Of a DNA stretch of 64,000 nucleotides, positions 8,941 through 30,620 are shown piece after piece; the stretch's first letter is position 1, and the number at the start of each line of letters is the position of its first letter. The notes below the pieces were generated by a model. That model was not told the origin of the DNA and did no database searches. It worked only from the letters and a program-made list of their open reading frames with translations. A program made the translations under genes and the position numbers. Source of the DNA: Blastococcus sp. DSM 46786 (GTDB taxonomy: Bacteria; Actinomycetota; Actinomycetes; Mycobacteriales; Geodermatophilaceae); NCBI RefSeq assembly GCF_900109665.1, contig NZ_FOAO01000006.1, forward strand, positions 124,001 to 188,000, given 5' to 3'.

Positions 8941-8953
8941 ATGGTCTAACCAT
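8941..8953. promoter_or_regulatory. GntR/FadR-type operator upstream of the ABC importer operon
   Basis: ATGGTCTAACCAT is a perfect 5+3+5 inverted repeat. It fits the TGGTnnnACCA pattern bound by FadR-subfamily GntR proteins and matches seven other sites in this window. It lies in the 158-bp gap upstream of the binding-protein gene at 8818. The binder is inferred to be the regulator at 20726-21502. Confidence 0.7.
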
Positions 8954-8976
8954 TCGACCAGGCCGTTATGCGACCG

Positions 8977-9819
8977 TTACACAACCCCGGGCGCGCGCAA
9001 CGGTCCGTCGGCGAGCAGGCGCGCCACGTCGCCGACCGTCGTCCCCGCCATGACTTGCCGGGCGGTCTCCGCGACCGGCACGTCCATGCCGACCCGCCGG
9101 GCCAGGTCGGCCGTGTTGGCCAGGTCCTTGGCGTGCCAGGTCAGGTGCATCTGCTCCAGCTCCCGCAGCGTGCGCGAGTCGGTCGGACCGTCCTGCAGCG
9201 CGGCCCGCAGGAGCGGCACCGACACTCCCCCGCGGCGCGCCAGCTCGAGCGCCTCGGTGATCGCCGAGATCTGTGCCCAGTGCACGAGGTTGTTGGCCGT
9301 CTTCCCGACCTGGCCGGCCCCGAGGGGACCGAGGTGGTGCACCGCCTTCGTCCACGGCTCCAGCAGTGGCCCGATCCGGGAGAGGACGCCGGCGTCACCC
9401 CCGACGAGGAGGTTGATCTCGCCGGCCTCGGCACCGCGCACCCCGCCGGTCAGGGCGGCGTCGAGGACGGCCACCCCCGGGGGCGCGGCGTCGGCCACCG
9501 CCTGGCAGGTCTCGGGGCGCACCGACGAGCAGAGCAGCACCACGGCGCCCTCCGCACAGCCGGCCAGCAGCCCGTCCTCCCCGAGGCAGACCCTGCGGAC
9601 GTCGTCGTCGGTGGGGACGAAGACGGCGACCAGGCCCGCTCCCCGCGCCAGGTCGCCGAGCGCAGCGACCGGTCGCGCCCCGCGCGCTACGGCGCGTTCG
9701 ACCGCGGCGGGGTCCAGGTCGTGGACCTGGACCGACACGCCGCCGGTGAGGAGGTGCCGCACGACGGGGGCACCCATCGCGCCCAGCCCGATGACGGCGA
9801 CGAGCGGAGGATCGACCAC
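8977..9819 (-). CDS. 3-hydroxyisobutyrate dehydrogenase-like NAD(P) oxidoreductase
   Basis: A 280-residue beta-hydroxyacid dehydrogenase. The N-terminal Rossmann motif VIGLGAMGAPVVRHLL binds NAD(P). The family substrate-binding motif is present as DAALTGGVRGAEAGEINLLVGG, and the catalytic Lys lies in GQVGKTANNLVHW in the helical C-terminal domain. The family oxidises or reduces 3-hydroxy acids and semialdehydes (3-hydroxyisobutyrate, tartronate semialdehyde, 2-hydroxymethylglutarate). The start is GTG at 9819. It is transcribed away from an MFS gene, with an AAGGTAATACCTT palindrome between the two. In this island it may handle a short-chain product of ring cleavage; that is inference. Confidence 0.88.
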   Translation of the reverse strand: MVDPPLVAVIGLGAMGAPVVRHLLTGGVSVQVHDLDPAAVERAVARGARPVAALGDLARGAGLVAVFVPTDDDVRRVCLGEDGLLAGCAEGAVVLLCSSVRPETCQAVADAAPPGVAVLDAALTGGVRGAEAGEINLLVGGDAGVLSRIGPLLEPWTKAVHHLGPLGAGQVGKTANNLVHWAQISAITEALELARRGGVSVPLLRAALQDGPTDSRTLRELEQMHLTWHAKDLANTADLARRVGMDVPVAETARQVMAGTTVGDVARLLADGPLRAPGVV

Positions 9820-9872
9820 GATGAGGACTCCTTCGAGCGGGGCGGCAGCGTGGGGGCCGTCACAATGTGCTT

Positions 9873-9885
9873 AAGGTAATACCTT
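9873..9885. promoter_or_regulatory. Palindromic operator candidate, GGTnnnACC variant
   Basis: AAGGTAATACCTT is a perfect 5+3+5 inverted repeat in the 95-bp gap between divergent genes (reductase left, MFS right). It keeps the GGTnnnACC core of the other sites but has AA/TT flanks instead of AT, so it may bind the same regulator weakly or a different GntR protein. Confidence 0.5.
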
Positions 9886-9914
9886 CAGACCAGGCGTCAA
9901 GAGGGGGCCCGACC

Positions 9915-11243
9915 ATGCGGTGCTCCTGGTCCACCCGGCGACGCGGGACGAGGACCGACGGCACCAGCCGGTTCCGCTCCTGGGGGCGGCGCACCTTCCG
10001 ATCCCTCGAGGTGCCGAACTACCGCACCTTCTTCGCCGGCCACGCGGTCAGCGTCGTCGGCACCTGGATGCAGCGGGTGGCGCAGGACTGGCTCGTGCTG
10101 GAGCTGTCCGACTCCGCGGTGGCCGTCGGGGTGGCCACCGCTCTCCAGGCGGTGCCGACCCTGCTGCTCGGGCTCTGGGGTGGCGTGCTCGTCGACCGGC
10201 TGGACCGGCGCCGCACCATCATGGGCACCCAGGCGGCCAGCGCCGTCCTCGCCGCGGTCCTGGCGGTGCTCACCCTCACCGGGACGGTCCAGCTGTGGAT
10301 GGTCTTCGGGTTGGCTCTGGGCCTGGGCCTGGTCACGGTGCTCGACGTACCGGCGCGGCAGGCCTTCGTCACCGAGATGGTCGGCCCGGAGGACTACGTC
10401 AACGCGCAGTCGCTCAACTCCACGATCCACAACCTGGGGCGCCTGCTCGGTCCGGCCGCCGCCGGGGTCCTCATCGCCACAGCCGGCAGCGGGATGGCCT
10501 TCGCCGTCAACGCCGCTTCCTTCGTAGGTGTGCTGCTCAGCCTCTGGCGCGTCGACGCCCACCGGCTCCGCCGCGGCGAACCCGTTCCCCGCCGGCGGGG
10601 TCAGGCGATCGAGAGCCTGCGCTACGTGTGGCACCGTCCCGACCTGCGGGCCTGCATGCTGCTCGTAGCCGTCGTCGCCCTGTTCGGCCAGAACTTCCGG
10701 GTGGTGCTACCCCTGTTCGCCCGCGACGCGCTGGGCGGTGGTGCGGCGACCTACGGATGGCTCACGTCGGCGATGGGCGCCGGCGCGGTCATCGGCGCCC
10801 TCGCCAATGCCGGCCGGGAGCGGATCACCTCGTGGTCGCTCCTGCTGTGGGCCGGCGGCTTCTCCCTCGTCAGCGTGCTGCTGGCCGGAGCGCCCGGGCT
10901 CGTCGTCGCCCTCGCGCTGCTCGTGGGGCTGGGCATCACCAACATCAGCTTCAACACCCTCGCCCGGGTGCTGCTGCAGCTGAGCGCCGACGCCTCGATG
11001 CAGGGCCGCGTCATCGCCCTGCACGCGACGGTCTTCCTGGGCAGCACGCCGATCGGCGGACCGCTGCTGGGCTGGGTCTGCGAGCAGTTCGGCTCGCGGA
11101 CGGGGCTGCTCCTCAGCGGCCTGGCCCCCGCCGCCGCGGCCCTCGCGCTGCTGCCCACCCTGCGCCGTCTGCGCCGTCGGGCCGGGGAGGTGGCCGGCCC
11201 GGCAGGCGCGGTCGAACCCGGGACGCGCACGACCCCCACCTGA
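9915..11243 (+). CDS. MFS transporter (MFS_3/EntS-like)
   Basis: A membrane protein of about 442 residues. The open frame begins at 9867, but ATG 9915 is preferred: GAGGGGG lies about 8 bp upstream, and 9867 falls upstream of the operator. After a basic N-terminal segment it shows the MFS_3 hallmarks SLEVPNYRTFFAGHAVSVVGTWMQRVAQDWLVL, VLVDRLDRRR and DVPARQAFVTEMVG, with about 12 helices. Family members export drugs, siderophores or metabolites; the substrate is unknown. It is divergent from the 3-hydroxyisobutyrate-dehydrogenase-like gene and convergent with the chromate-transporter-like pair. Confidence 0.86.
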   Translation: MRCSWSTRRRGTRTDGTSRFRSWGRRTFRSLEVPNYRTFFAGHAVSVVGTWMQRVAQDWLVLELSDSAVAVGVATALQAVPTLLLGLWGGVLVDRLDRRRTIMGTQAASAVLAAVLAVLTLTGTVQLWMVFGLALGLGLVTVLDVPARQAFVTEMVGPEDYVNAQSLNSTIHNLGRLLGPAAAGVLIATAGSGMAFAVNAASFVGVLLSLWRVDAHRLRRGEPVPRRRGQAIESLRYVWHRPDLRACMLLVAVVALFGQNFRVVLPLFARDALGGGAATYGWLTSAMGAGAVIGALANAGRERITSWSLLLWAGGFSLVSVLLAGAPGLVVALALLVGLGITNISFNTLARVLLQLSADASMQGRVIALHATVFLGSTPIGGPLLGWVCEQFGSRTGLLLSGLAPAAAALALLPTLRRLRRRAGEVAGPAGAVEPGTRTTPT

Positions 11244-12423: not shown

Positions 12424-13527
12424 TCAGTCCCGGATGTCCTGGAGGAACCACGCCGTCGGCAGTTCGCGGCCCAGACCGCGCTCGCGGCACTGCTCGTAGA
12501 CGTGGCCGGCCACGGCGAAGAACTGCGCCCCCTGGATGTTGCCGCGCTCGGAGAAGGTGATCTCCGCGTCGCTGGTGCGCACGGTCGCGCTGCCGTCCAG
12601 CACGTCCTCCAGGGCAACCAGCCGGGGGCCGTCCGGCCCCTCCGGCGGCCGGCGGACCGTACCGCGCGTGTGCTCGTCCCGCACCGGGTCATCCGGCCGT
12701 GCGGCGTAGGAGAGGTACTCGTCGGTCGGCCGCCAGGTCGGGTCGTTCAGGGGCGCCGGTGCCGTCCCGAGGCGGAGCCAGGCATCGAAGCGCTGACGGG
12801 CACGGGCGTCCGGCCGTCCGCCGATGCAGGTGACGTGGGTCCCCGGCTCCAGCCAGTCGCCGATCACGACGTCGGCAGCGGCGTCGGTGCAGCCGGCGAC
12901 GATGTCGGCCCCGCGGAAGACGTCCCGGGGTCCGTCGACCGCGACGACCTCGAGGCCGTGCTGCTCGGCCATCTCCCGGGCGTACTGCTCCCGGTTGGCC
13001 TCGGTGGGGCTGTAGACCTGCACCCGCTCCAGCGGCCGGACGGTCAGCAGCGCCTCGAGGTGGCTGCGGGCCATCCCGCCCGAGCCGAGCATCCCCAGCA
13101 CCCGGGCGTCCTCCCGGGCGGCGTACTTCGTGCCGATCGCGGAGTCCGCGCCCACGCGCATGTGCTGCAGCACGCCGTCGTTGAGGATCGCCAGCGGTTC
13201 ACCGGTGCGGGTGGAGAGGAGGAGGACCAGCCCGCAGTAGGTGCCCGGTTGCACGCAGTGCTTCTCCTGCGTGCGCGTTCCGCCGTACTCGGTGTACGTC
13301 AGCACGTCGGACTTCATCCGGATGGCGTAGTAGCCGGAGGCGGCCGAGCCGCCCTCCATCGTCCCCCACCGGTAGGTCGACCGGTCGTCGATCGGGAAGG
13401 ACATGTCGATGCGCGGCCGGCAGACGGCCTCGCCTGCGGCCAGGTCGCGGTAGGCCCTCTCGAGGGCGTCGACGACCGCGGGCATCCGCAGCACGCTCGC
13501 CGTCGCCTCGTTGTCGATCAGCAGCAT
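12424..13527 (-). CDS. Ornithine cyclodeaminase/mu-crystallin family protein
   Basis: A 367-residue protein starting MLLIDNEATASVLRMPAVVDALERAY. It carries the NAD(P) fold motif VLGMLGSGGMARSHLEAL near residue 145 and the region DIVAGCTDAAADVVIGDWLEPGTHV, typical of the OCD/Mu-crystallin family. Members deaminate ornithine, oxidise alanine or reduce cyclic imines, so the exact reaction is not assigned. It is divergent from the cupin gene at 13696 and shares with it a perfect ATGGTCATACCAT operator. The C-terminal part lengthens the usual 320-residue family size by about 40 residues. Confidence 0.87.
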   Translation of the reverse strand: MLLIDNEATASVLRMPAVVDALERAYRDLAAGEAVCRPRIDMSFPIDDRSTYRWGTMEGGSAASGYYAIRMKSDVLTYTEYGGTRTQEKHCVQPGTYCGLVLLLSTRTGEPLAILNDGVLQHMRVGADSAIGTKYAAREDARVLGMLGSGGMARSHLEALLTVRPLERVQVYSPTEANREQYAREMAEQHGLEVVAVDGPRDVFRGADIVAGCTDAAADVVIGDWLEPGTHVTCIGGRPDARARQRFDAWLRLGTAPAPLNDPTWRPTDEYLSYAARPDDPVRDEHTRGTVRRPPEGPDGPRLVALEDVLDGSATVRTSDAEITFSERGNIQGAQFFAVAGHVYEQCRERGLGRELPTAWFLQDIRD

Positions 13528-13583: not shown

Positions 13584-13623
13584 TTGGACTGTGACGGACG
13601 ACATGACATGATGGTCATACCAT
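13584..13623 (+). promoter_or_regulatory. Cupin promoter with overlapping GntR-type operator
   Basis: A candidate -35 TTGGAC (13584-13589), a 17-bp spacer and a -10 CATGAT (13607-13612) precede the cupin gene. The perfect palindrome ATGGTCATACCAT (13611-13623) overlaps the -10 and probable start of transcription, the position expected for repression. The same site can also serve the divergent ornithine-cyclodeaminase-like gene. Confidence 0.6.
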
Positions 13624-13695
13624 TCGCACGCACGCTACAGGGCGGCTCCGGGATGTGTGCGCACGAGCGCGCACCGGGCCGACAAGGAGGCAGAC

Positions 13696-14730
13696 ATGGG
13701 GAAAAAGGGCCGCGTCTTCGTCAGGGGACTGACCTCGGAGACCTACGGGCTGGGCCACTTCCGCAAGGCCCAGCTGGCCGCCGAGCGGGTCCGTGACGAC
13801 ACCATCGTCGTGGACGACGCCAAGATCGGGCACTCGGGCGACAGCGAGCAGAGCCGCACCTGGTGGCGGATCGGCCCGGGCGACGAGGAGTTCCTCACCC
13901 AGACCCTGCAGGTCCACTTCGTGGAGCTCCCGGGCGAGTCGAGCAACCACGGCCACGGCCACCAGAACGAGGCCGCCTTCTACATCCTCGAGGGCCGCGG
14001 GTACGAGATCCACGACGACCAGCGCTACGACTGGGAGAAGGACGACCTCGTCTTCGTCCACACCGACTCGGTGCACCGGCACTTCAACCCCTACCCGGAG
14101 AAGGCCGTCGCGCTCGTCGTCAAGGCGAAGTGCACGTTCATGTTCATGGGTCTCATCCAGCAGGGCCGCAGCGGCCCCGTGGAGAACGAGGACAAGTTCG
14201 GGCCCCGCGAGGACTGGTCGCAGATCTGGACGCCGGGCGTCCTCGACCGCAAGAAGGTCATCAAGCCGTCCGACTGCACGTGGGAGACCACCCAGCTCGG
14301 TCGGGTGCGCGTGATGAACGCGCCCGAGCGCACCGACGCGCGCCAGTTCTCGGTGGATGCCCTGGAGCTCCAGGTGCCCGCAGGCAGCCGCTCGGGCAAG
14401 TACTGGAAGATGGCCGACGAGGTGCACTACATCCTCGAGGGCGAGGGTTACGCCCTCATGTGGGAGGTGGAGTCCGAGATCGCGGAGAAGTACTACGCCC
14501 GCATCGCCAAGGAGCCCACCCGCCACGAGTTCACCCAGGGCGACACGGTCTACGTGCCGCAGAACCACATCTGCCAGATCTTCGCCGCCGACGGCACGCC
14601 GCTGCGCGTGCTCTCCTTCCAGAACCGCCTCTTCAAGCACCTGGGCTACGACAACGTCGCCTACCTGGAGGACGCGCCGGAGTACACCTCGTCGGCCGCC
14701 CGGATCGGCGAGCTCGCCGGCCAGGCCTGA
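13696..14730 (+). CDS. Double-cupin domain protein
   Basis: A 344-residue protein; start ATG 13696 follows a perfect AAGGAGG six bases upstream, and the open frame before it is not needed. Two cupin barrels are visible. The first has a metal-ligand-like HGHGHQNEAAFYILEG with a later H in DSVHRHF; the second has ADEVHYILEGEGYALMW and VPQNHICQIF, with fewer His ligands. Such proteins resemble gentisate-1,2-dioxygenase-type bicupins, which cleave aromatic rings with Fe2+, but many are uncharacterised. It is the first gene after a bidirectional operator and is followed by a strong terminator, so it is monocistronic. Role in ring cleavage is inference. Confidence 0.75.
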   Translation: MGKKGRVFVRGLTSETYGLGHFRKAQLAAERVRDDTIVVDDAKIGHSGDSEQSRTWWRIGPGDEEFLTQTLQVHFVELPGESSNHGHGHQNEAAFYILEGRGYEIHDDQRYDWEKDDLVFVHTDSVHRHFNPYPEKAVALVVKAKCTFMFMGLIQQGRSGPVENEDKFGPREDWSQIWTPGVLDRKKVIKPSDCTWETTQLGRVRVMNAPERTDARQFSVDALELQVPAGSRSGKYWKMADEVHYILEGEGYALMWEVESEIAEKYYARIAKEPTRHEFTQGDTVYVPQNHICQIFAADGTPLRVLSFQNRLFKHLGYDNVAYLEDAPEYTSSAARIGELAGQA

Positions 14731-14873: not shown

Positions 14874-15923
14874 TCAGTAGCTGTCGACGACCAGCTGCTG
14901 GAACTCCTCCGGCGAGTCGAGCACCTCGCGCACCAGCTGGGCGGTCTCCTCCCCGCTGAGCGGGTTCAGCGGCCGCTGCTGGCTCTCCAGCTCGTCGACC
15001 AGCTCCTGGTTCCCGATCGCGCACTGGTAGCCCTCGCGCAGCGCCGCGACCCGGTCCTCCTCCATCTGCGGGGAGGCGATCAGCGAGCGACCGGTCTGCC
15101 CCATCGCGATGAGGTTGTCGACGATGGTCTGCGCGTCGGCGTCGGCCGCCTCGGTGTCGCTGATCGCGGGGGTGTCGGGCAGCAGCGGGTCCGGTTCGTC
15201 GTCGACGGTCACGACCGGGCGGACGTCACCGGACTCGATCGCTCCCAGCTGGCTGTCGACCGGCAGGGCGTGCGCGTCGGCGTTCCCGGCGACGACGGCC
15301 TGGCGGGCCTCGGTCGAGCCGGCGAACCCGGTGACGATCTCGTAGGGGAAGCCGTAGGCCTCGCCGAGGATGGTCGGTGCGATGTAGTCGTTCGCCCCCG
15401 GGCCCTGGGCGACGAAGCGCACCGTCTCCTCGGCGTCGACGATGTCCTGCCACGTCTGGAAACGGCTGTCCGGGGACACGACGACCACGTTCGGGGGTGC
15501 GGAGACCCGGCCGATCCAGTTGAGGTCGTCGAGATCGAAGTTGGCGCCCTCGGCGCCGGCGATCTGCGCGGACACCAGGCCGACGGTGTTCACGATCTGC
15601 AGCCGGTTCTCCGAGGCGGGGGCCGCCGCCGTCTTGTTGGTGGCCACGAGCCCGCCGGCGCCCGGCTCGTTGCGGACGACGACGCGTGCGCCCGTGCACT
15701 CCTCCAGGTAGGGGGCGAGGGCCCGGGCGTAGGCGTCGTAGCCGCCTCCGGGCTCGTAGGGGACGACCAGGTCCAGGTCCTCCCCCTCGAACGCCCCCTC
15801 GGCCGCCGCCGCCCCGTCCTCGGCGTCGCCGCCGGACCCGCAGGCGGTGAGCGCTCCGGCGAGCGCCACCGCCACGGCCGCGTGCCGGCCTGCCGCCCGT
15901 CTGGACGTCGTTCTCGTTCGCAT
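14874..15923 (-). CDS. Tripartite tricarboxylate transporter substrate-binding protein TctC-like (orphan)
   Basis: A lipoprotein of about 349 residues. Start ATG 15923 has GAAGGAG upstream and opens a signal peptide ending in the lipobox LTAC near residue 28. The mature part has the TctC (Bug) landmarks VVPYEPGGGYDAYARALAPYLEE and NEPGAGGLVATN, and a conserved SP.SRFQTWQD segment. TctC proteins capture dicarboxylates, tricarboxylates or aromatic acids for TctAB. No tctAB lies next to it; the only pair in the window is at 28438-30533, with its own TctC. It is the last gene of the Rieske operon, so it probably delivers the oxygenase substrate. Sequence around YEPGGGYD matches the second TctC closely. 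Confidence 0.87.
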   Translation of the reverse strand: MRTRTTSRRAAGRHAAVAVALAGALTACGSGGDAEDGAAAAEGAFEGEDLDLVVPYEPGGGYDAYARALAPYLEECTGARVVVRNEPGAGGLVATNKTAAAPASENRLQIVNTVGLVSAQIAGAEGANFDLDDLNWIGRVSAPPNVVVVSPDSRFQTWQDIVDAEETVRFVAQGPGANDYIAPTILGEAYGFPYEIVTGFAGSTEARQAVVAGNADAHALPVDSQLGAIESGDVRPVVTVDDEPDPLLPDTPAISDTEAADADAQTIVDNLIAMGQTGRSLIASPQMEEDRVAALREGYQCAIGNQELVDELESQQRPLNPLSGEETAQLVREVLDSPEEFQQLVVDSY

Positions 15924-15975
15924 CGCTCTGGTGCTCCTTCGTCGTGGACAGCCGGCCCCGGGAGTGAGGGGACGG

Positions 15976-16839
15976 TCAGTCGGCCGGCAGCCGGACCGCG
16001 TCGAGGAACTGCAGGATGCGCGCGGGGGCGGTCTCCTCCGTCTGCTCCGCGACGGGCGCATCCCAGTACTCGGCGTGCGGCAGGCACTCCTGCAGGTAGC
16101 GGGCGGCCGAGGGTGCGTGCGAGTCGTCCTGGCCGGGCACGATCAGCGTCGGCGTGGCCAGGTCGAGCAGGTCCTCCGGCTCCGCGCCGGGCACGGTGTC
16201 GCGGTCGAACATCAGCCGCGCCGTCCCGCTCACCAGCACGGCGTAGCGCTCCGGGTCGAGCTCCGCGTACCGGGCGGCGAACCCGGGGTCGGTCCGGACG
16301 ACGCTGTTCCAGGGGCCCACCCGCGGGTCCTTGGTGAACCCCAGGTCGGTGCCCCGGATCAGCTCGACCACGGCCCCGAGGCCGCGCTCCTCCACGAAGG
16401 ACAGGTGCTGGGCGAACCGGGCGTGCTGCTTCATGCGGTACTTGACACCACCGGCCGGCGAGTACAGCACCATGCTGTCGACCCGCTCCGGGTGCGCGAC
16501 GGCGACGGCGGCGGCCGTGGAGCAGCCGACGCAGCCGCCCATGAGGTGGGCCGACGCGATGCCCAGCTGATCCAGGAGCCCGACGGCCTGGGCGACGTAG
16601 TCCGCCCAGCGGATCCGCTGCACCCGCCCCCCGGAGCGGCCCGATTCGCGCCGGTCGAAGGTGATGCAGGTGTAGCGGGTGCTCAGGTGGTCCAGCAGGG
16701 ACAGCCGCCGGTAGACGCCCACCGTCCGCCAGCTCTCCAGCGTGGAGTCGAAGCCCCCGGGGGAGAACATGAGCAGCGCCGGTCCGGAGCCGCTCACCTC
16801 GTAACGCGTCTCGATCCCGTCGACGACGGCGGTGGGCAC
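15976..16839 (-). CDS. Alpha/beta hydrolase with Cys at the nucleophile elbow
   Basis: A 287-residue alpha/beta hydrolase; the GTG at 16839 (GAGAGGA upstream) begins MPTAVVDGIETRYEVSGSGP, and the longer frame upstream is a shadow. The oxyanion-side SPGGFDST and FDRRESGRS motifs precede the nucleophile elbow HLMGGCVGCSTAAA, so the expected G-x-S-x-G is G-G-C-V-G with Cys near residue 103. Later PTLIVPGQDDSHAPS carries the likely acid; the His near the C-terminus (PHAEY) is less clear. Cys nucleophiles occur in dienelactone hydrolases, which open ring-cleavage lactones. Placed in the Rieske operon, lactone or thioester hydrolysis is plausible but unproven. Confidence 0.82.
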   Translation of the reverse strand: MPTAVVDGIETRYEVSGSGPALLMFSPGGFDSTLESWRTVGVYRRLSLLDHLSTRYTCITFDRRESGRSGGRVQRIRWADYVAQAVGLLDQLGIASAHLMGGCVGCSTAAAVAVAHPERVDSMVLYSPAGGVKYRMKQHARFAQHLSFVEERGLGAVVELIRGTDLGFTKDPRVGPWNSVVRTDPGFAARYAELDPERYAVLVSGTARLMFDRDTVPGAEPEDLLDLATPTLIVPGQDDSHAPSAARYLQECLPHAEYWDAPVAEQTEETAPARILQFLDAVRLPAD

Positions 16840-16865
16840 GGTGGACGTCCTCTCGATCGGTCGGG

Positions 16866-18201: not shown

Positions 18202-18203
18202 GA

Positions 18204-19490: not shown

Positions 19491-19525
19491 CGGTGTCTCC
19501 CTCTCCTCAGCCGCGCAGCGGACTG

Positions 19526-19538
19526 ATGGTCATACCAA
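19526..19538. promoter_or_regulatory. GntR-type operator of the Rieske operon
   Basis: ATGGTCATACCAA retains a perfect TGGTCATACCA core and differs from the consensus only in the last base. It lies 36 bp upstream of the Rieske oxygenase start on the minus strand, downstream of a TTGACG that could be a -35. Confidence 0.68.
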
Positions 19539-19562
19539 TCGTGGGCGCCGTCAACTCCCGGT

Positions 19563-23104: not shown

Positions 23105-23135
23105 GGGTGCGCTCCAGAGGACGGGGAGAAACGAC

Positions 23136-23172
23136 GACGTGCGGTCCGCCGGCAGGAGGCGGACCGCACGTC
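23136..23172 (-). terminator. Perfect hairpin between the bicupin and EutA-like genes
   Basis: A perfect 15-bp stem (23136-23150 with 23158-23172) with a 7-nt loop starts 19 bp after the bicupin stop, upstream of the EutA-like start at 23104. It would reduce read-through, so the EutA-like protein is expected at lower level than the bicupin, unless it has its own promoter. Confidence 0.75.
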
Positions 23173-23190
23173 GAGGCGGGACGGGAGGGA

Positions 23191-24312
23191 TCAGGCAGCC
23201 GGCTCGGGCGGCAGGTTCTCCTTCTCCTGCTCGTACGCGGTCTCCATCGCAGGCTCGAGGCCGTGCTTGGCCAGCGCCTCCTTGAACGTCTCGCGCACGT
23301 AGGACGACTCGTCGGCGTAGTCGATCTGGTCACCACCGATGCGCTGGCTGATCCAGGCCTTCGGCACGCCCTGCGCGTTCCGGATCGAGACGACCTCGTG
23401 CTTGAAGGCGAGGTAGCGGGCCGGCTCCGTGCCGGTGTTGAAGTGCTGGTGGTACCACATGTTCGGCGGCACGATCATGCTGCCGGCCTGCCACTCGTAG
23501 CGCCGCGGCTCCTCGCCCTCGGGCCACATCAGGCTGTAGCCCTCGCCCGACAGGATGATCACGTGGGCGCCCGGGCCGTGCCGGTGGCCCTTCTTGTAGG
23601 TGGCCGTGGGGAACTGCGAGATGTGGCTGTTCATCGAGCCCCGCGCCATGTTGAAGCGGATGTGCCCGCCGCCGGCGCCGCGCTCCTTGGCCTCGATCAG
23701 CGGCAGGCTGATCGCGTCGGCCACGAAGTTGGTGTCGAGCAGCAGGCCCTTCTGCTCACCCTTGGGCGCGAAGTAGTCCGGCTCGCCGTTGAAACGCTTC
23801 GGGAAGTCGTGGGAGGTGCCGAAGACGAACTCGATGTCGTCGTAGAGGTTGATGATCCCCGGGGCATTGGTCGAGGAGACGAAACGCGCCACCTCGGTGC
23901 CCGAGCCGTTGAAGTGCTGGTGGTCGGCGTTGAGCGGGATGGCGAACAGCGCACCCGGGCCCCACTCGAAGGTGACCTCGGCGCCGGCGTCGTTCCACAC
24001 CTTGGTGGAGCCGTGGCCCGAGAGGACCAGGATCATCTCCTCGAACAGCTGCCGCTGCGGGGCGAGCTGGCCGCCGGCCGGGATCTCGGCCACGTAGCAG
24101 TCGTTCGAGGTGCGGCTGGCCTCGTGGTTGATGAAGACGCCCCGACCGCCACGGCGGGCCCAGTCCTTGAGCTCGACGGTCTTCAGGTCGGGCACGTAGT
24201 GGGCGGCGATGATGTCGAGACCTTCGTCGGCCACCCAGCGGGTGTACGGCGAGTCCTTCTCGGTGGCGAACTTCGCCGCGAGGCTCTCGTTGACGATGGC
24301 ATCCTTGGCCAT
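23191..24312 (-). CDS. Bicupin protein, gentisate dioxygenase-like fold
   Basis: A 373-residue protein; ATG 24312 with GGGAGG upstream is chosen over the longer frame. Two cupin barrels are visible. The first has QRQLFEEMILVLSGHGSTKVW and LNADHQHFNGSG. The second has a fuller metal site, KKGHRHGPGAHVIILSGEGYSLMW, and later MWYHQHFNTG, giving His-x-His plus Glu/His ligands. Bicupins of this kind include Fe2+ ring-cleaving dioxygenases, but the specificity is not recognisable. The gene has a near-consensus promoter covered by an operator, which implies strong, tightly regulated expression, and it is upstream of the EutA-like gene. Confidence 0.78.
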   Translation of the reverse strand: MAKDAIVNESLAAKFATEKDSPYTRWVADEGLDIIAAHYVPDLKTVELKDWARRGGRGVFINHEASRTSNDCYVAEIPAGGQLAPQRQLFEEMILVLSGHGSTKVWNDAGAEVTFEWGPGALFAIPLNADHQHFNGSGTEVARFVSSTNAPGIINLYDDIEFVFGTSHDFPKRFNGEPDYFAPKGEQKGLLLDTNFVADAISLPLIEAKERGAGGGHIRFNMARGSMNSHISQFPTATYKKGHRHGPGAHVIILSGEGYSLMWPEGEEPRRYEWQAGSMIVPPNMWYHQHFNTGTEPARYLAFKHEVVSIRNAQGVPKAWISQRIGGDQIDYADESSYVRETFKEALAKHGLEPAMETAYEQEKENLPPEPAA

Positions 24313-24380
24313 GGGGCCTCCCTGGTCGACGCATGGGGTGAACCCCACGAACGGCGCGGCGAGCATGCCGCCATGCTTGA

Positions 24381-24417
24381 TCGGTAGGACCATAAGACCA
24401 CCGTCGGGGTGTGTCAA
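24381..24417 (-). promoter_or_regulatory. Strong promoter with overlapping operator for the bicupin gene
   Basis: On the minus strand, -35 TTGACA (24412-24417) is followed by a 17-bp spacer and -10 TATGGT (24389-24394). The operator ATGGTCCTACCGA (24381-24393) overlaps the -10 and start point, as expected for a repressor site. The -35 is the full consensus. Confidence 0.72.
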
Positions 24418-24549
24418 AGGACACCCACCGTCCTCGCCAGGTGTGCGGCAGGACCCCGGGGAGGGCCTGCGCCCCTCTGGCGTCGGGCTGCCGCCGGTCG
24501 CGCACCCACCGCTGGAACCCCTGGCCGGAACCTCGTCACGGCCGGCGTG

Positions 24550-24562
24550 ATGGTCCTATCAT
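24550..24562. promoter_or_regulatory. GntR-type operator of the FAD monooxygenase gene
   Basis: ATGGTCCTATCAT differs from a perfect palindrome by one base and lies 40 bp upstream of the FAD monooxygenase start. The last six bases, TATCAT, could be the -10, so repression by occlusion is likely. Confidence 0.62.
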
Positions 24563-24601
24563 TTGCCCGCTCTGCACTGCCCCCCGACGACAGAGGACGG
24601 C

Positions 24602-26182
24602 ATGACCGAACAGCACCAGGTGATCATCGTCGGCGGCGGTCCGGTCGGCGTGGGGCTCGCGCTCGACCTCGGGCTGCGGGGCGTCCGTTGCGTCGTCGTG
24701 GAACGGCGTTCCCAGCTGTCCAGCATCCCCAAGGGCCAGGGCCTGTCCCAGCGGACGATGGAGCACGCCTGGCGCTGGGGCGTGGCGGACCGGCTGCGCG
24801 CGGCCCGCACCATGCCGGAGGGGCATCCCATCGGGCAGGTGACGGTCTACGGCAACCTGCTGGGCGACTTCTGGAGCGCTCCGCCGGCCCGTGAGCTGGT
24901 GCGGGACTACTACGCCCAGGCCAACGAGCGGCTGCCGCAGTACCGCACCGAGGAGGTCCTGCGCAGCCGGCTGGCGGAGCTGCCCGGCGTGGAGCTGCGC
25001 CTCGGCCGGCGGGCCACCGGGGTCGAGCAGGACGAGAACGGCGTACGGGTGGTCGTCGAGCACGAGGGCAGCCGGGAGGTGCTGGAGGCCGACTACGTGG
25101 TCGGCTGCGACGGGGGGCACTCCGTCGTCCGCGAGCAGGCCGACATCGAGCGCAGCGGCACCGACTGGGACGAGCTGGTCGCACTCGTGGTCTTCCGTTC
25201 ACCCGAGCTGCACGAGGCGCTCAGCCGCTTCCCGGACCGGTCGACCTACCGCGTGATGCACCCGGACCTCGAGGGCTACTGGATGTTCTTCGGGCGGGTC
25301 GACGTCGGCGCCGAGTTCTTCTTCCACGCGCCCGTACCGCCGGGCACCACCGCCGACGGCCCGGAGATCGTCGAACTGCTGCACCGCGCAGCCGGCTTCC
25401 CCTTCGCCCTCGAGATCGACCACGTCGGCTTCTGGGACCTGCGCGTCCAGGTGGCCCACCGCTACCGCGCCGGCCGGGCGTTCATCGCCGGCGACGCGGC
25501 GCACACGCACCCGCCCTACGGGGGCTTCGGGCTCAACAACGGCCTCGAGGACGCCGCCAACCTCGGCTGGAAGCTCGCCGCCACGCTGCAGGGCTGGGGC
25601 AGCGACGCACTGCTGGACTCCTACAGCCTCGAGCGGCAGCCGGTCTTCCGGGACGTCGGCGAGGACATCATCGGCGGCTGGATCCGTGACGACCGCGCGA
25701 TGCTCGAGAAGTACCGGCCCGAGGACGACCGCGAGGAGTTCGCCCGCGCCTTCGAGGAGGCGGCCCGCGGATTCGGCCGCCGGCTGCGCGGCTTCGAACC
25801 GCACTACGAGGGCTCACCGGTGGTCTTCGGCCCGGCAGGCGGGGTCAGCAGCGCACACGGCGAGCACACCTTCGCGGCCCGCGCCGGGCACCACCTGCCG
25901 CCGCGGCGACTGACCTCCGGGCGGACCGTCTTCGAAGAACTCGGCGCCGGTTTCACGCTCCTGGCCCTCGACGTCGACGACGCTGCGGTAGCGGCGTTCG
26001 GGGAGGCCGCCCGGCTCCTCGGCGTGCCGCTGACGATCCTCCGCGACAGCCGCACGGGGGAGGCTGCCGACTACGGGGCACGGCTGGTCCTCGTGCGGCC
26101 CGACCAGTTCGTGGCCTGGACCGGGGATGCTGCACCGGACGACGCGGTGCGGGTCCTCAACCGGGCGACCGGCGCCGGCTGA
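24602..26182 (+). CDS. Class A FAD-dependent aromatic monooxygenase
   Basis: A 526-residue flavoprotein hydroxylase of the PHBH/PheA fold. ATG 24602 has GAGG five bases upstream. The N-terminal FAD motif is VIIVGGGPVGVGLALDLGLRG, followed by the FAD/NAD(P)H motif YVVGCDGGHSVVRE (residues about 163-178) and the GD motif AFIAGDAAHTHPPYGGFGLNNGLEDAANLGWKL. The C-terminal 130 residues form the thioredoxin-like domain seen in phenol- or MhpA-type hydroxylases. Such enzymes add an OH to a phenol or hydroxy-heteroaromatic ring using NAD(P)H and O2. It is a single-gene unit under its own operator, complementary to the Rieske oxygenase. Confidence 0.92.
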   Translation: MTEQHQVIIVGGGPVGVGLALDLGLRGVRCVVVERRSQLSSIPKGQGLSQRTMEHAWRWGVADRLRAARTMPEGHPIGQVTVYGNLLGDFWSAPPARELVRDYYAQANERLPQYRTEEVLRSRLAELPGVELRLGRRATGVEQDENGVRVVVEHEGSREVLEADYVVGCDGGHSVVREQADIERSGTDWDELVALVVFRSPELHEALSRFPDRSTYRVMHPDLEGYWMFFGRVDVGAEFFFHAPVPPGTTADGPEIVELLHRAAGFPFALEIDHVGFWDLRVQVAHRYRAGRAFIAGDAAHTHPPYGGFGLNNGLEDAANLGWKLAATLQGWGSDALLDSYSLERQPVFRDVGEDIIGGWIRDDRAMLEKYRPEDDREEFARAFEEAARGFGRRLRGFEPHYEGSPVVFGPAGGVSSAHGEHTFAARAGHHLPPRRLTSGRTVFEELGAGFTLLALDVDDAAVAAFGEAARLLGVPLTILRDSRTGEAADYGARLVLVRPDQFVAWTGDAAPDDAVRVLNRATGAG

Positions 26183-26293
26183 GTCCCGGAGCACTTTTCT
26201 GCAGCCATTCCGGTGTCGCCGTGTGACCTGGGTAATGAATGTCCTCGGAATCCGTGACTGGCTTCACGCAATGCCGACCGAACAGCACCTCGA

Positions 26294-26320
26294 ATTGTCC
26301 TACCATTATTGCGTAATGGT
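26294..26320. promoter_or_regulatory. Operator plus overlapping inverted repeat before the 68-aa gene
   Basis: ATTGTCCTACCAT (26294-26306) is one base from a perfect operator. It overlaps a second inverted repeat, ACCATTA-ttgcg-TAATGGT (arms 26302-26308 and 26314-26320). The surrounding 150 bp is noticeably AT-richer than its neighbours, as expected for a promoter region. The gene start is 36 bp downstream of the operator. Confidence 0.5.
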
Positions 26321-26560: not shown

Positions 26561-27250
26561 TCAGCGCCGGCCGGCCCCCAGCAGGTCCAGCGCGCGGTCC
26601 GCGTGCACGACCGACGCGTACTTCAGGTGCAGGTCGAACAACGCGATCTTGTGGGACAGGGGGCTGCGGTCGAACACCGCCTCCTCCACCACCACCACCG
26701 AGAACCCGTGCGAGTAGGCGTCCACCGTCGTCGCCCGCACGCAGCCGCTCGTCGTCTCCCCCGCCACCACGAGCGTGTCCACGTCGAGTTGCCGCAGCCA
26801 GGTGGACAGCGCGGTGCCGAAGAAGGCGCTCGCCCGGCTCTTGCGCACCACGGTCTCCCCGTCGCGGGGCCGCAGCGGCTCGATGAACTCCAGGCCGGCC
26901 GCGTCGTCCCGGCCGGCTGCCGGCACCCGCTGGGTGACCCCACCGCCGGGGACGCCGGGGCGGACGTCCCCGGTCGTGTGCAGCACCGGAACCCCGGCCG
27001 AGCGGGCGCGTTCCAGCAGCGCCTCCAGGTGCGGCAGTGCCGTCCAGCCGGCCAGGCCGCAGGACGAGGGGAACTCCGCGATGGCCTCGGCGAGCGGCTG
27101 CGGCCGGTCCCCGAAGACCTTGCGGTAGCAGTCGACCAGCAGCAGGGCCGGGCGGCGCCCGGGCGACCGCGGCCGGTACCGCGTGGCGACCAGGCGCTCG
27201 TCGTCCCCGATGACGTCGTCCCAGCAGTGCCGCTCGGGGACGGGGTCCAT
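26561..27250 (-). CDS. Isochorismatase-family cysteine amidohydrolase
   Basis: A 229-residue cysteine hydrolase. The catalytic triad is intact: Asp40 (ALLLVDCY), Lys137 (VVRKSRASAF) and Cys170 (TTSGCVRAT, preceded by a probable cis-peptide VVAGE). The roughly 45-residue N-terminal extension and the GVTQRVP... insert resemble N-carbamoylsarcosine amidase and maleamate amidohydrolase rather than plain isochorismatase. Those enzymes release ammonia from ring-cleavage amides. It is the last gene of the tctA-tctB-tctC operon, downstream of a strong hairpin, so an amide-containing substrate or intermediate is possible. The specificity is inferred. Confidence 0.87.
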   Translation of the reverse strand: MDPVPERHCWDDVIGDDERLVATRYRPRSPGRRPALLLVDCYRKVFGDRPQPLAEAIAEFPSSCGLAGWTALPHLEALLERARSAGVPVLHTTGDVRPGVPGGGVTQRVPAAGRDDAAGLEFIEPLRPRDGETVVRKSRASAFFGTALSTWLRQLDVDTLVVAGETTSGCVRATTVDAYSHGFSVVVVEEAVFDRSPLSHKIALFDLHLKYASVVHADRALDLLGAGRR

Positions 27251-27273
27251 GTCCTCTCCTCCCGGACGTCGGC

Positions 27274-27306
27274 CGCCCCGGCCCGCCGGGCAGGCGGGCC
27301 GGGGCG
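27274..27306 (-). terminator. Strong hairpin after tctC, before the amidohydrolase gene
   Basis: A perfect 14-bp stem (27274-27287 with 27293-27306) with a GGGCA loop lies about 40 bp after the tctC stop on the minus strand. It may be a partial terminator that lowers expression of the isochorismatase gene relative to the binding protein. Confidence 0.6.
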
Positions 27307-27344
27307 ACGGTGGGCAGCCGCTCAGGCGCTCGCGCGCCCGCAGC

Positions 27345-28391
27345 TCAGTAGAACGTCTTCAGCAGATCGCCGTACGCGGGCGGCGCGTCCGAGATCCGCT
27401 GCACCAGGCCCTCGAGCTCCTCACCGGGCAGGTAGGCCAGCTCGCGCTCCTGCTGCACCGACTCCTCGATCAGCTCGGGGTCGTTCATGGCCGCATCCAT
27501 GGCGCCGCGCAGGCACGAGGTGACGTCCTCGTCCATCCCGGGGGGACCGACGAACGGCCGGCCGAGCTCGATCAGGGCCAGGTGGGCGTCCAGGATGGCG
27601 GCCTGCTCCTCGGTCGTGTCCAGGTCGTCGACGGTCGGGACGTCCTCCGGCACCCAGTCCGGCTTCTCCTCGCCGACCACGAGGATGGGCGTCTGCGTCC
27701 CCTCCTCGACGGCGCCGCGCCGGCTGGTGAGGTTTCCGGACATGCCGTCGACGCTGCCCTGGATGACGGCCAACTCGGTCTCGCCCGACCCCGGGAACCC
27801 GGTGATGACCTCGCCCGGGATGTCGAAGACCGCGCTGAGCAGCGAGGAGGTCACGTAGTCCTCGGCGCCCGGCCCGGTCGAACCCCAGCGGAACTGGTCG
27901 GCGGCTCGGACGTCCTCGAAGGTCTGGTACGGCCCGGTGGCGCTGGTGACGATCAACGACGGGTCGCTGGCCACGCGGCCGATGTAGGTGAAGTCCTCGA
28001 GCGAGAAGCTCGCGCCCTCGGCGCCGGCGATGGACGACCCTCCGGCACCCACCCCGTTCATGATCGCCAGCGTCGTCCCGTCCGGGTCCTCGGCCAGCAG
28101 GTTGTTCAGGGCCAGGAGACCGCCGGCACCGGGCTGGTTCTCCACGACGACGGTGGCCCCCAGCGCCTCCTCCAGGTACGGCGCGACCAGGCGGGTGTAG
28201 GTGTCGTAGCCGCCGCCCGGGTCGTAGGGGACGACGAGGGCGACCGTCTCGCCCTCCAGGGAGGCGCACTCGTCGCCGGCGGCGGCAGCCGTGGGCTCCG
28301 AGTCACCGGAACAACCGGTGAGCACACCGGCACCGAGGCCGAGGGTGACCAGGGGCCACAGGCTCCGCCGCAGCGGCACTGCAGGCTTCAT
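27345..28391 (-). CDS. tctC: Tripartite tricarboxylate transporter binding protein TctC
   Basis: A 348-residue lipoprotein starting at ATG 28391, with AAGGAG upstream; the longer frame is shadow. The signal peptide ends in a lipobox (LTGC near residue 27). The mature part carries the TctC hallmarks VVPYDPGGGYDTYTRLVAPYLEE, ENQPGAGGLLALN and the GP..PYQTFEDV pattern, and resembles the orphan TctC at 14874. It binds a carboxylic acid outside the membrane and hands it to TctAB. It lies 46 bp after tctB and is followed by a hairpin and the isochorismatase-type gene. Confidence 0.9.
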   Translation of the reverse strand: MKPAVPLRRSLWPLVTLGLGAGVLTGCSGDSEPTAAAAGDECASLEGETVALVVPYDPGGGYDTYTRLVAPYLEEALGATVVVENQPGAGGLLALNNLLAEDPDGTTLAIMNGVGAGGSSIAGAEGASFSLEDFTYIGRVASDPSLIVTSATGPYQTFEDVRAADQFRWGSTGPGAEDYVTSSLLSAVFDIPGEVITGFPGSGETELAVIQGSVDGMSGNLTSRRGAVEEGTQTPILVVGEEKPDWVPEDVPTVDDLDTTEEQAAILDAHLALIELGRPFVGPPGMDEDVTSCLRGAMDAAMNDPELIEESVQQERELAYLPGEELEGLVQRISDAPPAYGDLLKTFY

Positions 28392-28437
28392 GCGTTCGCT
28401 CCTTCTGGATGACGATCTGCGGGGTGGGGCGGGTGGG

Positions 28438-29010
28438 TCAGTCGAGGAACAGCCCCGGCGGCGTCGGGACGGCGAGCAGGAGCTCGAAGGCCACGTACAG
28501 CACCGCGCCGACGACGAGCGCGTAGACGGTGCTGAGCAGCCAGGTCCGCCGGCCGGCGAAGCGGAGGTAGAGGAACGAGAACACCGGAGCGGTGACGAAG
28601 AGGCCGGCGACGTACAGCAGGACGAAGAACCCGACGCACCAGCCGATCGCCTCGGCCCAGCGTCGTGCACCGGCGGTCTGGAAGACGTACTCGGCGTCGT
28701 CGTCGTCCAGCTCCTCGACCTCGGCACCGTCCCCGCCGGCAGCCGGTGCGGGCGAGCGCTCCTTCCGCAGCCCCACCAGCGACTGGAGGAGCAGCAGCGC
28801 CGTGAGGACGAACCCGGCACCGGTCACCATGCGGGGGAACAACGCGGCCGTGGGCGGCAGCCCGCTGGTCTCCAGGTAGGCCCAGGCGAACAGGGCCAGC
28901 AGCAGGACCGTGAGGACGAGGTCGGCCACCGTGTCGGCCGGCCGGCGCGCGGCCCGATCCGTGGACGCAGCTGCCGTCGGCTCCACGGGCATCCCCGCGC
29001 CGGCGCTCAT
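28438..29010 (-). CDS. tctB: Tripartite tricarboxylate transporter small subunit TctB
   Basis: A 190-residue membrane protein with about four hydrophobic helices and a TctB-like N-terminal stretch (ADLVLTVLLLALFAWAYLETSGL...PRMVTGAGFVLTALLLL). A highly acidic loop EEVELDDDDAE-like segment sits between helices 2 and 3. The ATG at 29010 overlaps the stop of tctA (ATGA), so it is translationally coupled to the large subunit. TctB is the small, poorly conserved subunit needed for transport. Confidence 0.85.
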   Translation of the reverse strand: MSAGAGMPVEPTAAASTDRAARRPADTVADLVLTVLLLALFAWAYLETSGLPPTAALFPRMVTGAGFVLTALLLLQSLVGLRKERSPAPAAGGDGAEVEELDDDDAEYVFQTAGARRWAEAIGWCVGFFVLLYVAGLFVTAPVFSFLYLRFAGRRTWLLSTVYALVVGAVLYVAFELLLAVPTPPGLFLD

Positions 29011-30533
29011 GCCGCCACCTCGTCCTTCTCGTCGGTGCTCCGGGAGCTGCGGGACCGGGCGCGCAGCCGGCGGAGGGCCGGCGCGAGGACGGCCAGGACG
29101 ATGATCGCGCCGATCCCGAGCACGATCGGCCGGGTCAGCCACGACCACTCGAACAGGGAGTAGGAGAGGAACAGGTACCGCTCGGCCAGCGACCCCAGCA
29201 CCACGGCGAGCAGGAACGGGACCCGTGGCCAGTCGTAGCGGATGCAGAGCACCCCGATGACGGCGGCGGCGATCATCACCACGACGTCGGCGAAGTTGTT
29301 GCTGGCGGTGTAGGCGCCCAGGGCGAGGAGCAGCAGCAGGAACGGCACGAGCAGCGGGCCGGAGATGAAGGTCAGCCTGGTGAGCGGCTTGATGAGCAGG
29401 AAGGCTGCTGCCACGGCGATGAAGTTCGCCAGGACGGTCACCCAGATCATGGAGAAGGTGACGTCGAGCTCGGTGGTCAGCATCTCCTGGCCGGGATTCA
29501 GGCCGACGACCAGGAAGGCGCTGAGCAGGACGGCGCTGCCCGCGCCGCCGGGGATGCCGAAGCCGATCGTGGGGATGAGCGATCCGCTGTCCTTGGCGTT
29601 GTTGACCGCGCCGGAGGCGATGACCCCCTCGACCGCTCCCTTGCCGAAGAGCTCCGGCGTCCTGGAGCTCTGCTGAGCGGCGCCGTAGGCCATGAACTGC
29701 GCCACCGAGCCGCCCAACCCGGGCACGATGCCGATCCCGGTACCGATCGCGCTGGACCGCAGCACCACCCCCCAGTGCCGCAGGACGTCGCGGCACCCCT
29801 GGCCGATGCCGGACAGGGATGCCTCCGGCGTGGCCGCCGGGCCGCCGCTGGCGATGCTGCGCTTGCTCAGCATCAGCTGCAGCACCTCGGCGCCGCCGAA
29901 CAGGCCGACGACGAGCGGGACGATGCCGATCCCGTCCCAGAGGTACAGCTGGTCGAAGGTGTACCGCGGGATACCGGCCTGGGGATCCAGCCCGACGAGC
30001 GCGACCAGCAGGCCCAGCGCCGCCATGACGAAGCCCTTGAGCAGGGTCTTCCCGGACAGCGCGACGACGAACGTCAGCCCCAGCATGGTGAGGGCGAAGA
30101 ACTCCGGAGGTGCGAACGCCAGCACGAGCGGCCGGATCACCGGGATGGACAGCGCGAGGACGAGCGCGCCGAAGACCGCGCCGAGAGCCGAGCTGAACAG
30201 CACGGCGCCCAGGGCCCGGCCACCCTCGCCGCGCTTGGTCATGGGGTGGCCGTCGAGGACCGTCGCCGCCGACGTGGCTTCACCCGGGACGCCGAACAGC
30301 ACCGAGGTGATGTCTCCGGTGGTCGAGGTGACCACCCACATGCCGAGCAGGAAGGCGAACGCCTCGACCGGCTGCATGTCGAAGGTGAACGGGATCATGA
30401 GCGCGAGCGTCACCGCGCCGCCCAGCCCCGGGAGGACACCGACGACGAAGCCGATGGCGATGCCGAGGAACATGAGCATCAACGGCACGGGCTGGAAGAC
30501 CTGCGTGAGCCCGCTGATCACGTCGGACAGCAT
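29007..30533 (-). CDS. tctA: Tripartite tricarboxylate transporter large permease TctA
   Basis: A 508-residue permease with about 12 helices. Diagnostic TctA motifs are GVLPGLGGAVTLAL, the FGVPGEATSAATVLDGHPM loop, and a second inverted repeat GIVPGLGGSVAQFMAYGAAQ with FGIPGGAGSAVLLSAF. It moves carboxylates driven by the membrane gradient, with TctC as extracytoplasmic receptor. It leads the operon tctA-tctB-tctC-isochorismatase. The start is ATG 30533; a GntR-type operator is 75 bp upstream. With two TctC genes in the window it may accept more than one ligand-binding protein. Confidence 0.92.
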   Translation of the reverse strand: MLSDVISGLTQVFQPVPLMLMFLGIAIGFVVGVLPGLGGAVTLALMIPFTFDMQPVEAFAFLLGMWVVTSTTGDITSVLFGVPGEATSAATVLDGHPMTKRGEGGRALGAVLFSSALGAVFGALVLALSIPVIRPLVLAFAPPEFFALTMLGLTFVVALSGKTLLKGFVMAALGLLVALVGLDPQAGIPRYTFDQLYLWDGIGIVPLVVGLFGGAEVLQLMLSKRSIASGGPAATPEASLSGIGQGCRDVLRHWGVVLRSSAIGTGIGIVPGLGGSVAQFMAYGAAQQSSRTPELFGKGAVEGVIASGAVNNAKDSGSLIPTIGFGIPGGAGSAVLLSAFLVVGLNPGQEMLTTELDVTFSMIWVTVLANFIAVAAAFLLIKPLTRLTFISGPLLVPFLLLLLALGAYTASNNFADVVVMIAAAVIGVLCIRYDWPRVPFLLAVVLGSLAERYLFLSYSLFEWSWLTRPIVLGIGAIIVLAVLAPALRRLRARSRSSRSTDEKDEVAA

Positions 30534-30607
30534 GTGTTCCTCTCGACGAGCGGGGTGGCGGCGCAGTGCGCCGCGTCACAGGAGAAGACCCAACACCGTC
30601 CGGCCGA

Positions 30608-30620
30608 ATGGGTCAACCAT
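30608..30620. promoter_or_regulatory. GntR-type operator of the TTT transporter operon
   Basis: On the minus strand this reads ATGGTTGACCCAT, one base short of a perfect inverted repeat. It lies 75 bp upstream of tctA in a 261-bp gap that holds no other gene I can support. A TGGTCTGATGG half-palindrome follows on the same strand (about 30616-30626). Confidence 0.58.

Follow-up and report, generated by a model that had tools for sequence, protein, structure and literature searches.

Genes and operator sites of the cluster

The stretch of DNA analysed here (the window, 64,000 nucleotides) is C22:124001-188000, on contig NZ_FOAO01000006.1 of the 4.59-Mb, 47-contig genome of the soil actinobacterium Blastococcus sp. 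DSM 46786. The genes found there include those for a Rieske oxygenase, a 2Fe-2S ferredoxin, bicupins, a flavin adenine dinucleotide (FAD)-dependent monooxygenase, several transporters and a GntR/FCD regulator, and ahead of or between them lie copies of a short inverted repeat, TGGT-N3-ACCA (Table 1). Judged from the sequence, the cluster is very probably a FadR-subfamily GntR/FCD regulon whose genes look suited to importing and degrading an aromatic acid, perhaps an isophthalate-like one; a single regulator would serve approximately 13 operators, placed ahead of most of the operons.

A sequence-only reading of the window had listed eight 13-mers over 22 kb. All eight are present where it placed them, with 0 to 3 mismatches to ATGGTCNTACCAT, and it is the extent that has to be revised, to 13 sites over approximately 46 kb (C22:108420-154619). 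The list lacked the site at window 9874-9884, which lies between the genes for a 3-hydroxyisobutyrate-dehydrogenase-like (HIBDH-like) protein and an MFS transporter, and the four sites upstream of the window. Similarly, the core of the proposed 13-bp operator stands and its length does not, as the operator reaches about 25-27 bp. Operon borders were read from gene order alone.

The operators at window 24374-24400 and C22:116432-116458 (L031:12432-12458) overlap a possible ATG, of bicupin B and of a Pht5-like gene respectively; therefore the automatically annotated starts of these two genes are likely wrong, or the transcripts nearly leaderless.

Table 1. Predicted operators and genes of the cluster. 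Positions are those of the window unless given for contig C22; R1 is the 27-position profile described in the text.
Feature	Position	Strand	Core, outer box or domain	Genes and remarks	Bits
Operator 1	8934..8960		core TGGTCTAACCA 8942-8952; outer box TGGTC in right arm	upstream of ABC importer	25.2
Operator 2	9866..9892		core AGGTAATACCT 9874-9884; outer box in right arm	HIBDH-like (-) / MFS (+)	28.8
Operator 3	13604..13630		core TGGTCATACCA 13612-13622	divergon ornithine-cyclodeaminase-like / bicupin A; R1 genome-wide match	26.0
Operator 4	19519..19545		core TGGTCATACCA 19527-19537	upstream of Rieske-PanB-hydrolase-TctC genes; R1 match	24.7
Operator 5	19928..19954		core TGGTATGTCCA 19936-19946; outer TGGTC in right arm	divergon ferredoxin / histidine phosphatase-GntR	31.8
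Operator 6	24374..24400		core CGGTAGGACCA 24382-24392; outer TGGTC in right arm	bicupin B - EutA-like; below R1 reach	23.7
Operator 7	24543..24569		core TGGTCCTATCA 24551-24561	FAD monooxygenase; below R1 reach	14.0
Operator 8	26287..26313		core TTGTCCTACCA 26295-26305	small conserved protein; below R1 reach	22.1
Operator 9	30601..30627		core TGGGTCAACCA 30609-30619; outer TGGTC in right arm	TctA-TctC-isochorismatase genes; below R1 reach	17.6
Upstream site	C22:108420			before MFS gene; weak, candidate only
Upstream site	C22:110397			class II aldolase / ferredoxin reductase divergon
Upstream site	C22:116440			Zn alcohol dehydrogenase - LigK - LigJ-like - NMT1-like genes and divergent partner
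Upstream site	C22:118317			before bicupin C - AAA - thiamine pyrophosphate (TPP) enzyme
GntR/FCD (FadR-subfamily) regulator	20726..21502	+	PF00392, PF07729	proposed repressor
Histidine phosphatase	19977..20666	+	PF00300	upstream of regulator gene
2Fe-2S ferredoxin	19563..19928	-	PF00111
Rieske oxygenase	18204..19490	-	LigXa_C type	nearest solved relative isophthalate dioxygenase 9INA
PanB-like, alpha/beta hydrolase and TctC-like genes	14874..17699	-		downstream of Rieske gene
Ornithine cyclodeaminase/mu-crystallin-like protein	12424..13527	-
Bicupin A	13657..14730	+
EutA-like protein and bicupin B	21518..24417	-
FAD-dependent aromatic monooxygenase	24563..26182	+
Small protein, ~68 aa	26309..26548	+		open and alike in L045, L046, G011, G065
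Isochorismatase-like, TctC and TctA genes	26561..30533	-
ABC importer (two binding proteins, permease, ATPase) and MFS gene	2109..8953	-
HIBDH-like protein	8977..9819	-
MFS transporter behind operator 2	9867..11243	+		called start overlaps operator; true start probably further in

Confinement of the motif to the cluster

Within the window, the 13-mer with up to three mismatches is weakly enriched (20 strand matches against 11.4 expected, a number reached by 4 of 100 shuffles). Of the exact form WTGGTNNNACCAW the whole 4.59-Mb genome has six places, compared with two for its backward control, and five of the six are in C22:110396-143538. The remaining one, at C5:5100, falls within an AAA-type coding frame and scores 17.9 bits with the matrix introduced below. 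In the surrounding sequence (L013:12-2470) the AAA-type frame follows a DNA methyltransferase-like frame, perhaps a restriction locus to judge by resemblance.

The profile R1 was trained on 74 rows (73 distinct sites, one of them entered in both orientations) from the starts of homologous genes in other genomes. The 73 were picked by hand out of 139 non-redundant sites, with near-duplicates and doubtful ones dropped; neither the Blastococcus genome itself nor L045 and L046, the named genomes nearest to it, contributed sites, but L047-L050 did. Searching the whole genome with R1 at E<=10 gave ten strand matches, corresponding to six places, all in C22:110390-143953: window positions 8941, 13611, 19526 and 19935, and two upstream of the window. 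The best match of the whole genome is operator 5. A matrix derived from the same training rows was run over 116 kb around the cluster and found 13 places of at least 12 bits in C22:108-155 kb and none in the remaining 69 kb, where the best place reached 1.0 bit. When the 116 kb were shuffled 40 times with dinucleotides preserved, the mean was 0.1 places. In a further 78 kb of loci of this genome with a one-mismatch core, the coding C5 place was the only one to exceed 7 bits. A motif occurring with equal frequency throughout the genome had been named in the sequence-only reading as what would speak against a regulon. With the full motif this is not what was found, since WTGGTNNNACCAW, R1 and the matrix all confine it to the cluster, while the one-mismatch 11-mer is not so confined. 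That the cluster has a real shared operator is close to certain.

R1 found no site in 23 proteobacterial loci homologous to the cluster (L102-L124, 452 kb, from rhizobia, Rhodobacteraceae and others). These loci contain varied sets of Rieske, hydrolase, Zn alcohol dehydrogenase (znADH), PanB, EutA and bicupin genes and, as they have no R1 sites, are probably governed by a different regulator.

Conservation at homologous promoters

The 13 sites were compared with their counterparts in two related genomes, G011 and G065, in 23 comparisons (three counterparts were not found). Bases of the core are identical in 167 of 184 cases (0.91), compared with 1464 of 2254 (0.65) in the flanks. The cores of operators 1, 2, 5, 6 and 7 keep 16 of 16 bases over the two genomes, that of operator 3 keeps 8 of 8 in G065, and those of operators 8 and 9 each keep 13 of 16, the latter with flanks only 0.34 identical. 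Beyond these genomes, the core sequence of operator 1 is also found upstream of the SBP2 gene in Streptomyces loci, sites precede bicupin B in other loci too, as operator 6 does here, and TGGTAGGACCA precedes the same small frame as operator 8 in L045 and L046. Among named organisms, Blastococcus capsensis and B. saxobsidens have the Rieske genes most similar to this one (97-98%).

In 57 actinobacterial loci around Rieske homologues, 390 bases at the mapped start of each gene were searched for TGGTNNNACCA, and a gene was scored as positive if the best match there had no more than one mismatch. Positive genes were SBP2 in 20 of 21 cases, bicupin B in 39 of 39, ferredoxin in 38 of 48, the Zn alcohol dehydrogenase znADH2 in 32 of 41 and GntR in 12 of 30. 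Genes internal to operons scored 1/53 (alpha/beta hydrolase), 0/39 (LigK), 1/27 (NMT1a) and 5/39 (LigJ-like). The scores of PanB (49/54) and EutA (19/37) stem from conserved coding stretches and were not counted for the regulon. Raw counts of the exact core in other loci (165, versus 3-12 for permuted half-sites) were set aside as well, as they give too strong an impression: 80 of the 136 in actinobacterial loci are coding.

In another genome of the family, at G019:C39:76155-142990 (L174-L177), the matrix finds 20 rows, or 17 distinct places, of at least 7 bits across approximately 67 kb, a stretch in which bicupin B, EutA-like and TctA genes occur in a second arrangement.

The GntR/FCD regulator and its distribution

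The product of the gene at 20726-21502, nominated as the regulator in the sequence-only reading, has a GntR-type winged helix-turn-helix (HTH) domain (PF00392, 74.5 bits, cut-off 27) and an FCD domain (PF07729, 85.2 bits, cut-off 24.3); among the other cluster proteins scanned, none has a DNA-binding Pfam domain as match. The nomination is supported by co-occurrence with the operator, by a site in the gene's own promoter region and by the FadR-type consensus. For the FadR subfamily this consensus is TKGT-N3-ACMA, with a typical gap of 3 nt between GT and AC, and an Arg at HTH position 28 prefers G/C (PMC4494728, available part). The predicted operators match this form, and TGGTnnnACCA, already proposed earlier as a FadR-type site, agrees with the same published consensus (PMC4494728, available part). 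Every position of the DNA-reading helix FGVSRVTVREALR is common to at least 90% of 67 regulator rows. In the FCD domain, whose metal ligand set we take to be three His and one Asp, three His align with those of NanR, and the position of the Asp, four residues ahead of the first His, holds a Ser in this protein.

Among 96 genomes of the family, a Rieske homologue of at least 89% identity, a GntR homologue of at least 76% and at least two operator places (searched with stricter filters) pick the same eight genomes. None of the remaining 88 has two or more operator places and five have one. G060 and G085 each have a single place, approximately 1.3 kb from a 57-60% identical GntR located beside an MFS gene and an aldolase, and in G034, which has no operator match, the Rieske homologue is at 58% and the GntR at 59%. 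By hand calculation the chance of picking the same 8 of 96 is approximately 8e-12, a figure to be read with the relatedness of the genomes in mind, as related genomes are not independent. In a set of 26 genomes carrying the Rieske gene, GntR (E<=1e-40) is found in 22, that is in all 22 actinobacterial and in none of the four proteobacterial genomes; an acidimicrobial genome among the 22 has it at only 52% identity. Taken from sequence and distribution, it is highly probable that this GntR protein reads the operator.

Further GntR copies are found in related genomes. In four genomes of the family (L041-L044), G060 and G085 among them, an MFS gene and a class II aldolase adjoin a second GntR, 56-60% identical to that of the window; in G085 and G091 this match contains one stop. 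In Planotetraspora (L136, L137, L144 and L153-L155, the genomes of L068, L069 and L085) two GntR copies, 60-63% identical to that of the window, are found 12-17 kb apart on one contig.

An outer box extending the operator

Sequences outside the core are also placed with regularity. Ten sites of the Blastococcus genome were chosen by the core alone. Of their 20 arms, 8 (in 7 of the 10 sites) have a GGNC that starts exactly 7 bases ahead of the core, against a mean of 0.03 per arm at other offsets (binomial p 4e-8); TGGTC is found four times in the 58-base flanks, each time at offset -8. In other genomes GGNC is found at the same offset in 92 of 278 arms, compared with 0-27 at each other offset from -40 to -4. 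The operator consensus is close to GGTCTAATGGTNNNACCATTAGNCC, with the outer box 8 bases outside the core's own TGG. The outer box was first suggested by a TGGT-N11-ACCA signal (146), partly coding, and the counts at fixed offsets given above served as its test.

Tandem boxes recall E. coli NanR (6on4), the nearest solved relative of the regulator (E 6.7e-22, three FCD histidines aligned). Three NanR dimers bind three tandem GGTATA repeats and cooperate through a 32-residue N-terminal extension (PMC8012715, available part). Here, too, boxes are in tandem and approximately 30 residues precede the HTH domain; this extension has the length and is not conserved in sequence, hence it was not used as proof of NanR-like cooperativity, and cooperative binding is therefore put forward as a proposal only. 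The proposal, speculative and rather doubtful, is a composite operator of TGGT-N3-ACCA with one or two TGGNC boxes at 8-bp phase, on which neighbouring GntR dimers might cooperate in the manner of NanR, so that a master repressor would switch the 46-kb cluster. The differences from NanR include its operator, a (GGTATA)3 direct repeat, and its targets, the sialic acid genes (PMC8012715, available part), the centre here being an inverted repeat. Against the NCBIfam NanR model NF003011 the regulator scores 132.3 bits, below the cut-off of 260.

Proposed working of the regulon and the putative pathway

In the working that we favour, and which is probable rather than assured, the regulator is a repressor with an aromatic acid as inducer. 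A GntR dimer would bind the core and block transcription of its own operon and of about a dozen others over 46 kb; the aromatic acid, or an intermediate of the pathway, would occupy the FCD domain and thereby release the regulator from the DNA. The site between the ferredoxin and the histidine phosphatase-GntR genes would provide autoregulation. The substrate would be imported by the ABC, TTT and MFS transporters, hydroxylated by the Rieske oxygenase with ferredoxin and ferredoxin reductase and by the FAD monooxygenase, cleaved by bicupins, and the pathway finished by a 4-carboxy-4-hydroxy-2-oxoadipate aldolase; a substrate such as an isophthalate-like meta-dicarboxylate might thereby be taken to pyruvate and oxaloacetate.

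The aldolase is above the curated cut-offs for 4-carboxy-4-hydroxy-2-oxoadipate aldolase, LigK (TIGR02798, 323.6 against 304.5; NF006731, 337 against 179), and the end products predicted from this should therefore be pyruvate and oxaloacetate, which we take to be the products of the LigK-type reaction. Adjoining it is an Amidohydro_2 protein, presumably LigJ-like. LigJ and LigK serve the lower pathway of protocatechuate 4,5-cleavage and of gallate. The cluster shares with that pathway the LigK-type aldolase and differs from it in having bicupins and no LigB-family gene. The only LigB-family match of the genome is on another contig, so that the cluster lacks a protocatechuate 4,5-dioxygenase, a point against the proposed reading; ring opening may instead be carried out by one of the bicupins.

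The closest solved relative of the Rieske enzyme is the isophthalate dioxygenase of Comamonas testosteroni KF1 (9INA/9IOY; 452.6 bits; PMC12445078, available part). In our reading of the alignment, the carboxylate-contacting G172, R234 and H257 of 9IOY are kept (the numbering in the available part of PMC12445078 is shifted by 23), and the other substrate contacts are changed: T175 to Ser, I246 to Val, I294 to Val, F249 to Arg and F333 to Ile, the last two counting against the proposed reading. Isophthalate dioxygenase is a two-component system according to the same source, whereas here there are separate ferredoxin and ferredoxin reductase genes. The predicted substrate is likely a carboxylated ring, not necessarily isophthalate; an isophthalate-like compound is a tentative assignment, with the odds somewhat against it. 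Riboflavin/lumichrome catabolism, suggested by the presence of Rieske and TPP enzymes, was set aside, since its steps differ and its Rieske dioxygenase has alpha and beta subunits (PMC12746152, available part).

The small protein behind operator 8 has no Pfam match. It is probably real, as four other genomes have a similar gene with the frame intact.

Discussion

Several results weigh against the proposed regulon. With one mismatch allowed, the 11-mer TGGTCNTACCA gives 83 strand matches genome-wide against 310 for its backward control, therefore only the full motif is specific. R1 reaches six of the 13 places, the other seven depending on the matrix and on conservation, and the matrix, with its 73% GC background, scores 23 places of at least 12 bits in the 452 kb of proteobacterial DNA. 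In G011 and G065 the outer positions are identical in 159 of 230 cases (0.69), barely above the flanks, in part because often one arm only carries the box. Two of the 13 sites are poorly conserved in these genomes: the core at C22:108420 keeps 9 of 16 bases, and that of operator 4 (site 19526), the least conserved of the eight sites first listed, keeps 5 of 8 in G011, with nothing of at least 7 bits in G065. In the upstream test only a minority of Rieske genes (13 of 57), of ferredoxin reductases (10 of 37) and of bicupins A (3 of 15) were positive. The exact core is missing in 11 of the 57 loci, among them the mycobacterial L088, L089 and L093, although in L088 and L089 a site with one mismatch precedes the Rieske gene. 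Finally, four of the eight positive genomes (G019, G054, G068 and G075) contributed sites to R1 training, as loci L048, L050, L047 and L049 respectively; the four untrained ones (G000, G011, G063 and G065) behave like them, and it is on these that the argument depends.

One alternative concerns the direction of control. Were the regulator to activate the cluster, or to act on it in both directions, which we regard as unlikely, distances to the start codon such as the approximately -66 before the Rieske gene in mycobacteria would suit it. For ferredoxin (27 rows) the sites are at -59 to +13 from the mapped start, and for znADH2 (22 rows) at -79 to -1; these starts are extrapolated from the longest frames of the window and are uncertain. 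Such short distances are what repression predicts. NanR, the nearest solved relative, is also a repressor (PMC8012715, available part).

A different objection accepts the operators and gives them to a regulator encoded elsewhere, leaving the resident GntR a narrower role. A first look at the genome yields 26 GntR-like candidates, and members of the FadR subfamily share similar consensus sites (PMC4494728, available part). We nevertheless consider the objection improbable, even more so than activation. At E<=1e-40 the genome has only one match to the regulator; GntR and the sites occur together in 8 of the 96 genomes and are jointly missing in the proteobacterial genomes and loci searched; and the promoter region of the histidine phosphatase-GntR genes carries a site, as do, with no more than one mismatch at the start, the 12 of 30 mapped GntR genes elsewhere. 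The possibility that the motif is a chance or compositional pattern, such as coding repeats or AT-rich promoter spacers, can be neglected for practical purposes: the weak enrichment within the window, the 11-mer not enriched genome-wide and the coding share of exact cores in other actinobacterial loci are outweighed by a full motif confined to the cluster genome-wide, outer boxes in phase and the higher identity of the core than of its flanks.

The resident GntR protein, as the proposed repressor of the cluster, has much in common with PdhR, LldR, FadR and GlcC, which share the GntR HTH and FCD domains, a palindromic operator in which 3 nt separate GT from AC and the control of catabolic gene sets (PMC4494728, available part). 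It differs from them in gene content, in its actinobacterial distribution and in the approximately 13 operators per 46-kb cluster. The outer GGNC boxes 8 bp from the core are not mentioned for FadR-subfamily operators in the available part of PMC4494728. The sequence-only reading knew of no described regulon with this gene content, and none was found in the open-access literature searched, most subscription papers being outside its scope; the predicted regulator is a member of a known subfamily, and the regulon appears to be unreported.

The operator marks pathway genes that could otherwise hardly be linked to one another, namely those for the EutA-like and PanB-like proteins, the three bicupins, the TPP enzymes and the small protein. 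Homologues of the cluster are present in Geodermatophilaceae, Streptomyces, Planotetraspora, Pseudonocardia, mycobacteria and others, and the operator is a sharp and cheap handle on a large cluster of this kind; the regulator would be a ready sensor for finding the substrate. With the phased outer boxes, the operators described for the FadR subfamily gain a variation open to experiment, and the boxes may make this regulator a variant within it. If the composite operator is true, one master repressor would switch a 46-kb catabolic supercluster as a block, with counterparts in many actinobacterial genera.

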